A DNA stretch of 34,273 bases, taken from contig JAGVFQ010000013.1 of NCBI GenBank assembly GCA_020057505.1, positions 1 through 34,273 of the forward strand, given 5' to 3'. The stretch comes from Patescibacteria group bacterium (lineage in GTDB: Bacteria > Patescibacteriota > Patescibacteriia > JAGVFQ01). The notes beneath the pieces are model-generated. The model saw only the letters and a list, made by a program, of their open reading frames with translations, did no database searches and had not been told where the DNA came from. Positions 11,279 through 31,743 of this stretch are shown one piece after another. Position 1 is the stretch's first letter; every line of letters starts with the position of its first letter. The position numbers were made by a program, and so were the translations under genes.

Positions 11279-11385
11279 CGAATAATGCCCGTCCTCCGTA
11301 GCTGTAAGCGACAGCTACTGCGGAGGGTGGACGAATAATTGCGAATTAATGCGAATATGAAAATTCTTATCGCTTTATTCGTATA
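11279..11385. repeat. Family A element interrupted by a 43-bp hairpin
   Basis: CGAAT units start at 11279, 11332, 11342 and 11352, and inverted TATCG/ATTCG units end at 11372 and 11381. Between the first two units lies a hairpin (11291-11332, stem CCGTAGCTGT/ACAGCTAcTGCGG extended by GTCC/GGAC). Removing 43 bp restores the 10-bp unit spacing. One palindromic element therefore seems nested inside another. The region also carries the -10 (11412-11417, TATAAT) of the next gene just downstream. Confidence 0.65.
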
Positions 11386-16862: not shown

Positions 16863-17555
16863 TTATGCTTGCTTTTTATTTTCTATTACCGTCCCTTTGA
16901 AATTATTGCCTGATAAAAAACTTTCAAAATTAACCAAATCATTGCCTTGGATAACTAGTACTTTTATTTTCAACTTTTCTGTGAGCCGCGAAGCTACTGG
17001 ATCAAAGGGAGAGTTCAATCCAGGCCGCCATTTCCCGCCGCATATTTTTTTGAATTCTTTCCAATTAAGATTTCCCAATGGTTTCGCATCTTTGAATTTC
17101 CTTGGATCTTTATTGCAAATGCAAGAAATATTAGAAAGATTGATAATGGTTTTAATTTTATATTTCTTCGCGAGGATAGTACAAACATAATCTGTGGACC
17201 AGCCCGGACGCCAGCCGGCGGCTACAACAATTTTCTTGCCGGCTTCAATCTGGTCTTTGATCGGATCGGTAATAATTTTCTTCTGGCAATTTGTCCTGAA
17301 TATCGTCGCCAAGAGATGGCCGTTAAGGCGAGTTGAATGTATCCCTAGCCAATCAAAATCTTCGGTAATGCCTCCGCCGATGGCTCTCGCGGCATTCTGA
17401 TAATTTCTCGCCGTCATTCCCCCGCCTGTGACAATAATAAAATGATCGCCCTTTTTTACGCGGTTCAAAATCAATTTTTTAAAACGCTTTAAAAATTCTA
17501 TATCAATTTTATCCGGCACGATCACCGATCCGCCGAGTGATATGATGTAAAACAT
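16863..17555 (-). CDS. pyrH: UMP kinase, archaeal-type
   Basis: A 230-aa amino-acid-kinase-fold protein that phosphorylates UMP to UDP. Motifs: ISLGGSVIVPDKID (phosphate loop, about 5-18), FIIVTGGGMTARNYQNAA (about 41-58), VVAAGWRPGWSTD (about 122-134) and a C-terminal VASRL. The pattern is closer to the archaeal or short UMP kinases than to the usual bacterial PyrH. The start is placed at ATG 17555 (MFYIISLGGS); a GTG at 17561 is 6 nt upstream. Its 5' region is a family A palindrome and no ribosome binding site is seen. Confidence 0.85.
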   Translation of the reverse strand: MFYIISLGGSVIVPDKIDIEFLKRFKKLILNRVKKGDHFIIVTGGGMTARNYQNAARAIGGGITEDFDWLGIHSTRLNGHLLATIFRTNCQKKIITDPIKDQIEAGKKIVVAAGWRPGWSTDYVCTILAKKYKIKTIINLSNISCICNKDPRKFKDAKPLGNLNWKEFKKICGGKWRPGLNSPFDPVASRLTEKLKIKVLVIQGNDLVNFESFLSGNNFKGTVIENKKQA

Positions 17556-17560
17556 AAACA

Positions 17561-17641
17561 CGAATTAAAACGAATTATTAACGAATAAACACGAATACAC
17601 AAATTAGTGTATTTGTGCGTACTCGTCTTCTATTCGTGTAT
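17561..17641. repeat. Family A palindrome without a gene
   Basis: CGAAT units start at 17561, 17571, 17582 and 17592 (spacing 10, 11, 10). ATTTG, ACTCG and ATTCG follow at 17611, 17621 and 17632. Each right-hand unit ends at the position mirroring a left-hand unit around 17603.5 (coordinate sums all 35207), so the phasing is exactly symmetric. The central CACAAAT/ATTTGTG forms a tight hairpin. It lies directly upstream of pyrH. Confidence 0.8.
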
Positions 17642-17692
17642 ATTATTTTTATGTATAAATAAATTTTGACTCTCAGATCTTTTCTTTTTTAA

Positions 17693-18623: not shown

Positions 18624-18634
18624 AGGTTAACACG

Positions 18635-18711
18635 CGAATGTTACGCGAATATTTGCGAATGATCACGAATGCCATTTGCAAACTATTCACATATATTCGC
18701 AAAATTATTTG
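18635..18711. repeat. Family A palindrome without a gene, overlapping the translin-like stop
   Basis: CGAAT units start at 18635, 18646, 18656 and 18666; inverted ATTTG, ATTCA, ATTCG and ATTTG start at 18674, 18685, 18695 and 18707. Mirror sums are 37344-37346, so the arms are symmetric within 2 bp. The right arm encodes the final residues I-R-K and the stop of the translin-like gene. The left arm lies just upstream of the Nudix start. Confidence 0.8.
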
Positions 18712-19277
18712 CGTATACTAATATCATACATAATCTCCTCAATCTTCCTCATATTATTTTTCGCCTGATCGTATTTGGTGCGCAGATAACCGGTTAGATT
18801 CATTTCAATCAATTCCTGCATAATCGATTCAATCGCTTTCTTGAATTCTTCCACTTCGTCAAACTTTCTTTTGGTAGCCGAGGCAATCGCCTTGCGGAGT
18901 ATTTCACCCGTGAGATCGCAAAGACCGCCGAGATAACTATCTAAATCAACTTTGATTTCCTTAATCTCATCAATCTTTTTCTCTCGTAAAAAATTAAAAA
19001 ATAACTTGGCTTCAGCATATTCCTCTGTGGCTGCCCGATAAGCGCCTTCACCCCTTAATTCCTCGTCTCTCTCAAATCTTTTTTCTAAATTTTCAAATAT
19101 ATTTTCTATGGTTTTTAATAATTCCCCCGCTCGTTCTACATCATCGCGATGCAGGGCAAAAATAGCCTGCTTCGAAAGTGCTAAAGCCTCATTTGATTCG
19201 CTGATAAGTTTCCGTCTCTCACTTCCATAAAGCTCATATTCCGCTTTGATTTTTTTAAAAAATTTTTGGTTTAACAT
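18705..19277 (-). CDS. Translin-family protein
   Basis: A 190-aa all-helical protein. The N-terminal region RRKLISESNEALALSKQAIFALHRDDVERAGELLKTIENIFENLEK (about 21-66) and the middle EYAEAKLFFNFLREKK (about 87-102) plus LDSYLGGLCDLTGEILRKAIASATK (about 111-135) match the translin/TRAX fold. Eukaryotic and archaeal relatives bind single-stranded RNA or DNA, and some act as RNases. Translins are present in archaea and some Candidate Phyla Radiation bacteria; the bacterial role is unknown. Its stop codon is provided by the adjoining family A repeat. It is followed upstream by the 58-aa gene, 12 nt away. Confidence 0.75.
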   Translation of the reverse strand: MLNQKFFKKIKAEYELYGSERRKLISESNEALALSKQAIFALHRDDVERAGELLKTIENIFENLEKRFERDEELRGEGAYRAATEEYAEAKLFFNFLREKKIDEIKEIKVDLDSYLGGLCDLTGEILRKAIASATKRKFDEVEEFKKAIESIMQELIEMNLTGYLRTKYDQAKNNMRKIEEIMYDISIRK

Positions 19278-29187: not shown

Positions 29188-30487
29188 GTTCTTCTTCAAT
29201 TTCCATCAGCCTATTATACTTGCCGACTCGTTCGCTACGAGACAAAGATCCGGTTTTAATAAAATCAGCATTTACCGCTACCGCTAAATCGGCAATAGTG
29301 GTATCATTGGTTTCACCGGAACGATGAGAAATAACAACTTTGTATTTATTTTTTTGCGCGAGAGAAATCGCTTGTATTGTTTCAGTCAGGGTTCCGATTT
29401 GATTCAGCTTAATTAAAATCGAGTTGGCAATATTTTTTTCAATTCCCTTTTTCAATCTATTAATATTCGTCACAAACAAATCATCACCGACGATCATTAT
29501 TTTCTTGCCCATTTTACCCGTAAAATCTTTCCATTGGTTCCATTCGTCTTCGGCCAGCGGATCTTCAATAGAAATTATCGGATATTTATCCACCCAAGCC
29601 TGATACATTTCCGCAACCTCTTTATAACTTTTAAAAAACTGGCCTTGATTTTTTTGTTTAAAATTAAAATCATAGCCCTTCCCTTTCTTGTATAATTCGG
29701 AAGCCGCCACATCAATAGCAATAGAAACTTGATCTCCGGGCTTATAGCCGGCCGCGCCAATCGCTTTTACAATTAATTCAAGGCCGATTTCGTCTTCATC
29801 AAAATCCGGAGCATAGCCAAAGGGCCCTTCGATATTGGGAGCATAGCCGCCCTCGTCACCTACCAAAGCATTAACCCTGTAATTTTGCAGGATTTTTTTC
29901 AGAGCGTGAAAAATCTCCGCGCCGGATCGAACTCTCTCTTTAAAGAGTTTCGCCTTGGGCACAATCATGAATTCCTGCGTTGAGATGGTATTATCAGCGT
30001 GCTTGCCGCCGTTGATAACATTCATCATCGGCAAAGGCAACTTATAATCCTTAAGATTTATACCATAAGATTGCCTTAAGTATTTATACAGCGGCAAATC
30101 AAGAGCATTAGCCGCCGCATGGGCGCAAGCCATAGAAACGCCAAGAATCGCATTCGCGCCCAGTTTGGATTTATTTTCCGTCCCGTCTTTTTCTATCATC
30201 ATTTGATCAATTTTTTTCTGCGCGGTTACTTTCTTACCAATCAAAAGATCATTCAAAACAGTATTAACGTTTTTCACTGCCTTCAATACTCCCTTGCCGC
30301 CATATCTTTTCAGATTATTATCCCGCAATTCCAAAGCTTCGTGCGAACCAGTGGAAGCGCCCGATGGCACAGAGGCCGCGCCGCTCACCCCATTTCGCAA
30401 TAGAACTTTTGCCTCAACAGTAGGATTGCCCCGCGAATCCAAAATCTCGCGAGCAGTGATTTGTTTGATTTTAAGGGAGTTGAACAT
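29168..30487 (-). CDS. eno: Enolase
   Basis: A 439-aa enzyme converting 2-phosphoglycerate to phosphoenolpyruvate. Signatures: [21 protein letters not shown] (about 9-29), [17 protein letters not shown] (about 40-56), [38 protein letters not shown] (metal Glu and Asp), [25 protein letters not shown] and [21 protein letters not shown]. The family sequence is complete. The extreme C-terminus (AEQRG) lies in a small duplicated segment. The gene is separated from pgk by the SIMPL gene and a GxxExxY element. No ribosome binding site is seen at the ATG. Confidence 0.98.
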
Positions 30488-30493
30488 AGATTG

Positions 30494-30962
30494 ACACGCT
30501 AATAACCGCGAATAGCGCTAATACGCACTAATGATCGCGCCCTACTTTAGATTAATCACTCTTTTTATTTGGATTTTTGACCCTCGAAAATTTACAATAA
30601 TTCCTAATTTTAACTTTGATGCTTCTAAATATCTTATCATCTGCCGGTAATCTTCTCGAGTTATATAACTTTTTGCTTTCGCATCAATTAAAATAATTTT
30701 ACGAAAAATAAAATCAACTCTATTTCCTCCAATTTCTCCGCCTATAAATGGGAGAATAATTTCTTTTTCTCGCTCATAATCATCTTTACTATTCTTAAAA
30801 ACAATCTCAATGGCGTCAGCATATTGTTTCTCTTTGCCGGTTGAACCTAATTGATTTTGGATGCTATAGAAAATACCAGTCAAATAATAGCTTTCTTTAG
30901 GATAAACCAAGTCAGCCATATTATTAGTGCTTATTCGTGGTATTAGAGTTTATTAGTGTAAT
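30494..30962. mobile_element. GxxExxY element: gene flanked by symmetric family A arms
   Basis: Left arm: CTAAT, CGAAT, CTAAT, CTAAT start at 30499, 30509, 30518 and 30528 (spacing 10, 9, 10). Right arm: ATTAG, ATTCG, ATTAG, ATTAG start at 30923, 30933, 30942 and 30952 (spacing 10, 9, 10). Each unit mirrors one in the other arm, and start plus end coordinates always sum to 61455. The only gene inside is the GxxExxY gene, which starts 4 nt from the right arm and ends 10 nt from the left. The same arm type occurs without a gene at 17561 and 18635. No target-site duplication is evident at the ends. Confidence 0.65.
30542..30919 (-). CDS. GxxExxY-family protein
   Basis: A 125-aa protein with the family pattern QLGSTGKEKQYADAIE (about 23-38, E30 and Y33) and the C-terminal YRQMIRYLEASKLKLGIIVNFRGSKIQIKRVI (about 91-122). 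In the middle, NRVDFIFRKIILIDAKA shows D69 and D79-x-K81, matching a PD-(D/E)xK nuclease core. The function of the family is unknown; it is widespread in environmental bacteria. The start ATG directly follows the right repeat arm, without a ribosome binding site. The position between mirrored repeat arms suggests it travels as a small element and may act on the arms; this part is inference. Confidence 0.88.
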   Translation of the reverse strand: MADLVYPKESYYLTGIFYSIQNQLGSTGKEKQYADAIEIVFKNSKDDYEREKEIILPFIGGEIGGNRVDFIFRKIILIDAKAKSYITREDYRQMIRYLEASKLKLGIIVNFRGSKIQIKRVINLK

Positions 30963-30963
30963 T

Positions 30964-31743
30964 CTATTTGATCTCGTACACCACCATCGCATCAACGACT
31001 ATATCCAAACTGCCGCTCTCTACTTGCGGAGCTGGCGCGGATTCGGCGGCGCCGCCTATACCCATGGCATAATTTTTATAAATCGGCTGAGGATATTGGC
31101 TTGATTCATTAAAAGAAACTACCTTGCCTAATTTTACGTCCATAATATCCGCCAAAGCTTTGGCTTTCTCTTTGGCGTTCTCAAGGGCTTTTATTCTCGC
31201 TTCATTTTGTAATTTTTCCGGATCATCAATGCCAAAACTTAATCCGCCCACTTGATTCAAACCCAAAGTACCCGACATAGCCAAAATATCGCCAATCTTA
31301 TCCATGTTTCTAATCTTCACCGTCACGGTCTGATTCACTTGATAGCCGCGCAAGGTTTGTTTGCCAACATTATAATCATACTGGGGATATATTGAGTAAT
31401 TATTGGTTTGGATATCTTTCGCGTCAACACCCATATCCTTAAGCTGCTTATTCAATTGATTCATTTTGTCGGTATTTTCTTTTTGCGCTTCGGCAACCGT
31501 CTTCTTTTCCGTAGTTAAACCAAGTTGAATATTGGCAATATCAGGAATGGCCGTGACCTTACCTTCGCCGGAAATAGCGATCGTGTCTCGTTCCTGCACC
31601 TGTTTGCCGATATAATCATACTGCTTCATACTGTTGCGGATCATAACCGCGGCGATGACGATAAATGCCAAAAAAGCGAGAGCCAAAAGAATAGTAAAAA
31701 TTTTGTTCTCACTCCATGTTGGCCAAAATGTTTTCTCGTTCAT
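30964..31743 (-). CDS. SIMPL-domain (DUF541) protein
   Basis: A 259-aa protein with an N-terminal transmembrane anchor (about 13-35, IFTILLALAFLAFIVIAAVMI). The SIMPL domain follows (about 52-258): DTIAISGEGKVTAIPDIANIQLGLTTE, LKDMGVDAKDIQTNNYSIYPQYDY, GYQVNQTVTVKIRNMDKIGDIL and ARIKALENAKEKAKALADIMDVKLGKV. These are typical of the family (YggE, SIMPL). Members are periplasmic or surface proteins with roles in stress or signalling that remain poorly defined. It lies 26 nt after pgk and just before the GxxExxY element. Confidence 0.9.
   Translation of the reverse strand: MNEKTFWPTWSENKIFTILLALAFLAFIVIAAVMIRNSMKQYDYIGKQVQERDTIAISGEGKVTAIPDIANIQLGLTTEKKTVAEAQKENTDKMNQLNKQLKDMGVDAKDIQTNNYSIYPQYDYNVGKQTLRGYQVNQTVTVKIRNMDKIGDILAMSGTLGLNQVGGLSFGIDDPEKLQNEARIKALENAKEKAKALADIMDVKLGKVVSFNESSQYPQPIYKNYAMGIGGAAESAPAPQVESGSLDIVVDAMVVYEIK

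Follow-up and report, generated by a model that had tools for sequence, protein, structure and literature searches.

Phased, mirrored arms around GxxExxY nuclease genes suggest a single-gene mobile element of a type not described before

Between the genes for enolase (eno) and a SIMPL protein, a Patescibacteria group bacterium carries a small GxxExxY gene that is enclosed by two mirrored runs of short repeated words. This arrangement raises the question of whether gene and repeats together form a mobile element, as had been proposed in a sequence-only reading of the window. By the window we mean the whole stretch of DNA that was analysed, which comprises 34,273 nucleotides of the forward strand of contig JAGVFQ010000013.1 (assembly GCA_020057505.1). 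Comparisons with related genomes indicate that the arm-flanked unit is very probably mobile. We assign a probability of roughly 0.6 to the fuller reading, in which the phased arms are the ends of a single-gene mobile element whose gene codes for a small, stand-alone PD-(D/E)XK nuclease with a fold like those of Cas4, RecB, and lambda exonuclease.

The eno-SIMPL element and the arms of GxxExxY genes

The element is located on the minus strand at positions 30496 to 30959 (464 bp) and occupies the complete eno-SIMPL junction, where the GxxExxY gene sits between the enolase start at 30487 and the SIMPL stop codon at 30964. Its left arm (30496 to 30535, plus strand) carries four phased pentamers, CTAAT at 30499, CGAAT at 30509, and CTAAT at both 30518 and 30528, which follow one another in steps of 10, 9, and 10 bp. 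The right arm (30920 to 30959, minus strand) mirrors these steps with ATTAG at 30923, ATTCG at 30933, and ATTAG at 30942 and 30952. All of these coordinates agree with the original description, including the constant sum of 61455 for left start plus right end in every pair of pentamers. The arms had also been called exactly mirrored, which is true of the positions but not of the letters, given that CGAAT stands opposite ATTAG and that the longest arm match (40 bp, 30496-30535 / 30920-30959) is 78% complementary. This match has a score of 22, which was reached in none of 1000 shuffles (8.0 ± 2.1). The enclosed gene (30542 to 30919, minus strand) encodes 125 amino acids, and the right arm begins immediately past its first codon and lies 4 bp short of the SIMPL stop codon.

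When the eno-SIMPL region was compared among relatives, as the sequence-only reading had advised, the junction proved to be element-free in at least 11 distantly related genomes of the same class, wherein eno comes directly after SIMPL with no GxxExxY gene in between. Removal of positions 30496-30959 from the spacer of the window would leave about 12 bp of intergenic DNA, similar to these element-free relatives. The arms of the window copy are imperfect, and its exact ends do not recur many times. The copy is probably old, with its gene still intact, and it may no longer move.

Additional arms are present elsewhere in the window. Two gene-free palindromes of like design had been reported nearby, and arm-like, imperfect palindromes are indeed found at about 17.56 kb (17545 to 17660) and 18.65 kb (18625 to 18735), but their second halves are degenerate, and their scores were reached in 6 of 300 and 0 of 300 shuffles, respectively. 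A solo arm of phased CGAAT words at 11.33 kb (11279 to 11356, plus strand) is split by a GC-rich palindrome, cccgtcctccgtagc..gcggagggtgga. Such a GC-rich palindrome (tcctccgtagc..gcggagga) interrupts the arm at an identical position in two of this genome's copies, one at 11279-11331 of the window and the other at locus L094. Six triple-phased arms are observed in the window, where a second-order Markov model predicts approximately 0.005, and a genome-wide count yields 66 phased triple-arm matches versus a single match with a reversed control pattern. Furthermore, CKAATAATGCGAATNNNTGCGAAT, an arm of another gene-bearing element of this genome (L005), recurs in at least 10 dispersed arms.

Mirrored arms are a general feature of GxxExxY genes. 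They were found in nearly all flanks of the seven PF13366 genes of the window's genome and of those from 35 relatives drawn from Patescibacteria, Bacteroidota, Ignavibacteria, Verrucomicrobia, Kiritimatiellales, and Dependentiae, and about 40 additional loci of the class have the same arrangement. Among 59 GxxExxY genes from several phyla, the arm score averaged 21.9 within a locus, compared to 12.9 across loci and 11.4 for 85 control ORFs (Mann–Whitney P = 1.4e-18), and 57 of the 59 genes exceeded their own cross-locus mean. The sequence-only reading had asked if such arms accompany GxxExxY genes elsewhere, and they are far more common there than beside control genes. The lowest arm score of all belongs to locus L124. 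Sequence autocorrelation of the flanks has maxima at lags 10 and 19. The words themselves vary between elements (CTAAT/CGAAT, CAAAT, TACGAAA, CGCGGAT, AATCTGTG, TTGATT, and others), and the two arms of any one element are built from the same word. Three PF13366 or PF05635 matches (L110, L228, and L188) lie within open frames of 481 to 1162 amino acids and might represent fusions to other genes.

Within the window's class, 98 of 381 genomes carry PF13366. Phased arms number 9.9 per genome on average in carriers and 0.72 in noncarriers (P = 8e-6, 57 class genomes). Two genomes (G046 and G042) have phased arms, with 12 and 5 matches, yet no PF13366 match. Because these genomes are AT-rich and the pentamers are short, one could ask if CTAAT-like words simply arise by accident in intergenic DNA. 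This explanation from base composition is refuted by five controls (shuffled sequence, Markov model, reversed pattern, cross-locus pairing, and neighbouring genes).

Insertion boundaries and gene-free copies

The limits of these insertions can be read in the genus g178. Only 5 to 9 bp separate the lepA stop codon from the next ATG in four congeners (G208, G327, G263, and G366), and in G249 the element is located exactly within this gap, with a phased word beside the lepA stop and its mirrored counterpart just ahead of the following start codon. A single arm remains at the lepA site in G293. At another location, site C, one pair of genes encloses an element in both G380 and G249, from a different subfamily in each, and in G293 there is a 32-bp spacer. 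Empty orthologous sites, which had been sought as evidence for insertion, are thus represented by the lepA junction in the four congeners and by site C in G293. Arm-to-arm limits are also seen among more distant elements. For example, L039 and L040 belong to different hosts and share 81% identity along 432 bp, a similarity that starts and stops within the arms, leaving flanks that are unrelated.

Other sites have a more complex occupancy. Between the sister species G007 and G049, some sites are filled in one species only, one is common to both, and two hold different families, and this pattern indicates that sites seem to be re-used or replaced. Different subfamilies were observed at one intergenic site in sister species in several cases (L151/L162, L149/L167, L240/L243, and L239/L245), suggesting hot spots or in-place replacement. 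Likewise, the gap between rpsG and fusA holds GxxExxY elements in three families of the class (L002, L117, and L118), whose arm words are related yet different.

Repeated occupation of the same sites, as at rpsG-fusA in three families and at g178 sites C and D by different subfamilies, might suggest a homing-type selfish nuclease. Such an enzyme would cut element-free alleles at fixed sites and be copied in by homologous repair, with the arms as relics or recognition sites and without transposition to new locations. Indeed, a homing endonuclease has been documented in rRNA insertions of CPR bacteria (PMC11270868). We consider this improbable, however, given that a single genome can carry many copies at unrelated sites, that near-identical 128-bp copies in G249 have different flanks, and that the contexts of L039 and L040 are unrelated. 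Moreover, homing would not be expected to generate gene-free copies.

Gene-free copies are abundant in two sets of relatives. The class relative G007 carries 18 of them (93 to 95 bp) along with one gene-bearing element (459 bp), all of which have CGATGCNAATAT..ATATTNGCATCG in common. In genus g178, TGAACCWYGATT ends are common to four gene-bearing elements (448 to 493 bp) and over 20 copies that lack the gene (102 to 174 bp). The g178 end motif, ATTGTC(T)TGAACC..GGTTCA(A)GACAAT, is present in both kinds of copy, conservation extends outward through ATTGTC and ends there, and each of two gene-bearing subfamilies has gene-free copies to match. The two 128-bp copies in G249 lie 1.15 kb apart, and it is their left flanks that differ. 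The PF13366 carriers G249, G380, and G293 have 91, 23, and 10 copies of the motif, respectively, and five congeners that lack a PF13366 match (G366, G243, G208, G263, and G327) have none. G270 carries the gene and has no exact g178 end motif; its element ends in CTAGACC. The proposed relationship of an autonomous element to nonautonomous derivatives is weakly supported within the window itself but strongly supported by the common ends in G007 and g178.

No target duplication of 3 bp or longer was found among seven g178 copies with complete ends, which is a small sample. In G007 (L136-L154), GC-rich hairpins of variable sequence flank the copies just outside both ends at a near-constant distance, with a mean folding z score of -2.15 compared to -0.44 for controls. 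In the same copies, arm-segment variants (TTGATA, CCCTA, and TTGTA) that precede CGAAT combine freely between left and right, as if recombining. A search of g178 flanks (L242 of G249 and relatives) also revealed another family of dispersed palindromes, TTAAGACGTTATGACGTTAAGA, together with a GTACATC repeat.

The arms could conceivably be immobile regulatory sequences, such as phased operators, terminators, or mRNA hairpins that control the small gene, with the gene-free palindromes representing independent regulatory repeats. The upstream arm overlaps the promoter and start region, autoregulation could make use of phased sites, and terminator-like hairpins adjoin some copies. We regard this explanation as very unlikely because arms are present on both sides and delimit insertions exactly, because dispersed families have common ends, and because the mixing of left and right arm variants in G007 breaks RNA pairing. 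The arms also have no match among Rfam families, with nothing above the gathering score.

The enclosed protein and its predicted role in mobility

The protein encoded in the window matches PF13366 (PDDEXK_3) with 72.3 bits (cut-off 22) and TIGR04256 with 71.3 bits (cut-off 35). An AlphaFold2 model built from an alignment of 48 sequences (pLDDT 94.9, pTM 0.87) adopts a PD-(D/E)XK fold, for which the best PDB structures identified by Foldseek are SSO0001 (Cas4), RecE, Cas4 Pcal_0546, LHK-Exo, and lambda exonuclease; the Cas4, RecE, and lambda exonuclease entries are 4ic1, 4r5q, 3h4r, and 1avq. The PD-(D/E)xK-like core proposed at the outset (D69 and D79-x-K81) is supported by this model and by the invariance of its residues, although assignment to the PD-(D/E)XK group was already recorded in Pfam. 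The active-site set of the window protein consists of E30, D69, D79, K81, Q93, and Y97. Across the alignment, D69, D or E at position 79, K81, and Y97 are conserved in 48 of 48 sequences, Q93 in 47 of 48, and E30 in 47 or 48 of 48. We take this pattern to be that of the RecB/Cas4/lambda-exonuclease branch. A kinship to T7 endonuclease I was suggested by a weak profile match (E = 0.013) and was set aside because the fold search favours Cas4, RecE, and lambda exonuclease.

Matches to the Cas_Cas4 profile are weak and limited to 7 of 48 members, and neither cas genes nor any other CRISPR or recombination partner was found beside GxxExxY genes in the loci inspected. According to Pfam searches of the 48 members, none has a DDE, HUH/Y1, tyrosine recombinase, or serine recombinase domain, and PF13366 is the sole gene between the arms. 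PADLOC assigned the window protein to no defence family. The protein was not found in phage and viral-contig collections, and plasmids yielded one weak match; nothing in these collections thus points to carriage by phages. One pair of orthologs, L147:2090-2386(-) (the second gene of G007 C95) and L166:3455-3751(+) (G049 C93), lacks arms and appears to be catalytically dead, with D69 replaced by N or S and E79 by R; no other dead copies were seen. The pair, found beside an active-looking element, may represent domestication.

Arm sequences and protein sequences change together. With orthologous sites set aside, elements that have similar proteins tend to have similar arms (rho = 0.43; 0 of 300 Mantel permutations), also inside Patescibacteria alone (rho = 0.45), compared to a rho of 0.05 for DNA segments 200 bp outward. 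At orthologous sites, the words may change in step in both arms, as in L005 versus L114 and among L002, L117, and L118 at rpsG-fusA. Such a pattern would be expected if the protein recognised the arms.

We favour, somewhat beyond even odds, the view that the GxxExxY nuclease is itself the mobility enzyme. Specifically, we infer that the protein would carry out binding, cutting, and strand transfer, and would also mobilise copies in trans. Several protein copies might bind the words of each arm, whose spacing of about 10 bp would place them along one face of the DNA, and the bound proteins might then pair both arms. The invariant active site suggests that the nuclease would nick or trim DNA at the element ends. 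The segment could subsequently be copied or moved into short spacers between genes, aided by the repair or replication machinery of the host and with no evident target duplication. Finally, the identical ends and species-level co-occurrence of arm-only copies suggest that these may be moved in trans by the same protein. Two observations fit this scheme less well. Orthologous sites sometimes hold different subfamilies, which could reflect in-place replacement rather than fresh insertion, and G270 has the gene without the exact end motif. In the initial proposal of a candidate mobile element, then, the mobility of the unit is supported by shared ends, empty sites, and boundaries, and the part played by the protein in this movement is predicted.

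The same architecture exists around a second, unrelated gene. Genes for the four-helix-bundle 23S_rRNA_IVP protein (PF05635) also reside within mirrored arms (29 genes; 21.4 within-locus versus 10.8 between, P = 2e-16), and the mirrored-arm architecture is thus not unique to GxxExxY genes. These arms have a 7-bp period (lags 7, 14, and 21) and element-specific words (L074, L013:3992-4357, and L184-L212), and carriers make up 46 of 57 class genomes. In CPR bacteria, IVP ORFs have been reported within insertions in 16S and 23S rRNA genes (PMC11270868). This parallel broadens the finding, and it also makes it less compelling that the protein between the arms has to be a nuclease. Given that four-helix-bundle genes share the architecture and that no catalytic site is known for them, the gene inside the arms may be something other than the mobility enzyme.

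Accordingly, the unit may be mobile while its gene is a passenger, a regulator, or an accessory DNA-binding protein, and another enzyme, such as an HUH/REP-type transposase or the host replication and recombination machinery, moves it in trans, with both parties recognising the arms. The presence of an unrelated protein in arms with a 7-bp instead of a 10-bp period is consistent with this explanation, as are the arms of G046 and G042, which have no PF13366 match. In addition, the result of 0 target duplications in 7 copies and the GC-rich hairpins outside the G007 ends recall single-strand mechanisms. Yet arm words co-vary with protein sequence, copies are confined to gene-carrying congeners, and active-site residues are invariant in arm-bearing copies. 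We therefore judge a passenger role to be unlikely, though it is the foremost competitor to a nuclease-driven element. With respect to the nuclease-driven element, we are evenly divided on a broader form, a superfamily of bacterial mobile elements in which all movement, including that of gene-free palindromes, is due to one small Cas4-like PD-(D/E)XK nuclease that recognises the helically phased words of paired arms, with the IVP elements and their 7-bp-phased arms as a parallel superfamily.

Comparison with known mobile elements

A nuclease gene enclosed by mirrored arms looks like a mobile element type that has not been described before, for which the cutting step is predicted. Within the open-access literature that was searched, papers on GxxExxY proteins do not deal with mobility, and no account of arms flanking GxxExxY or IVP genes was found. 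If our reading is true, GxxExxY and 23S-IVP genes, which are common genes of unknown purpose, would prove central to mobile elements, from which many of the intergenic palindromes that are so far unexplained, in Patescibacteria as well as in other phyla, would derive. It would also bring into DNA mobility a class of nuclease that is not known to operate there by itself. With the protein and its presumed target both within 500 bp, each element lends itself to a direct test.

Several known systems have individual features in common with these elements. Tn7 carries a PD-(D/E)XK core in TnsA, which requires TnsB and other partners, whereas here the nuclease is the sole gene between the arms. Cas4, RecE, and lambda exonuclease provide the best structural matches and the E..D..(D/E)xK..Q3xY residue pattern, but the GxxExxY protein is a stand-alone protein of about 125 amino acids that matches the Cas4 profile only weakly, and no CRISPR context was seen in the loci inspected. 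The 23S rRNA intervening sequences likewise place a small gene within mirrored arms, although the IVP protein is all-helical, the arm period is 7 bp, and those GxxExxY elements that were examined are situated between genes that encode proteins. Small mobile repeats such as RU, ERIC, and other MITE-like sequences, which have no known enzyme (PMC2229807), are also dispersed palindromes of about 100 to 150 bp, but the gene-free copies described herein have a gene-bearing partner with identical ends in the same genomes.

Closer parallels are offered by two classes of transposable units. The organisation of insertion sequences with MITEs is evident here in the inverted repeats that bound the insert, in gene-bearing and gene-free copies that share ends at unrelated sites, and in element-free orthologous sites. 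DDE insertion sequences with MITEs similarly have terminal inverted repeats, one gene, and internally deleted nonautonomous copies, but the GxxExxY gene encodes no DDE, HUH, tyrosine recombinase, or serine recombinase domain, and each of its arms is an array of several words in phase. RAYTs (TnpA-REP) belong to the HUH/Y1 transposases and are relatives of IS200/IS605 (PMC3116915, PMC8266576). As in RAYT, REP, and REPIN systems, the gene has its own repeats on either side, the genome contains numerous inverted pairs of the repeat that lack the gene, and repeat word and protein co-evolve; a target duplication is likewise not visible here, in a small sample of seven copies. However, the GxxExxY protein is a PD-(D/E)XK nuclease rather than an HUH/Y1 enzyme, and REPs are single hairpins, whereas each GxxExxY arm strings together direct words in phase, and both arms accompany the gene copy as it moves. 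Because it lacks the transposase that IS and RAYT families require, the element falls outside both, and it works like an insertion sequence with its MITEs or a RAYT with its REPINs.
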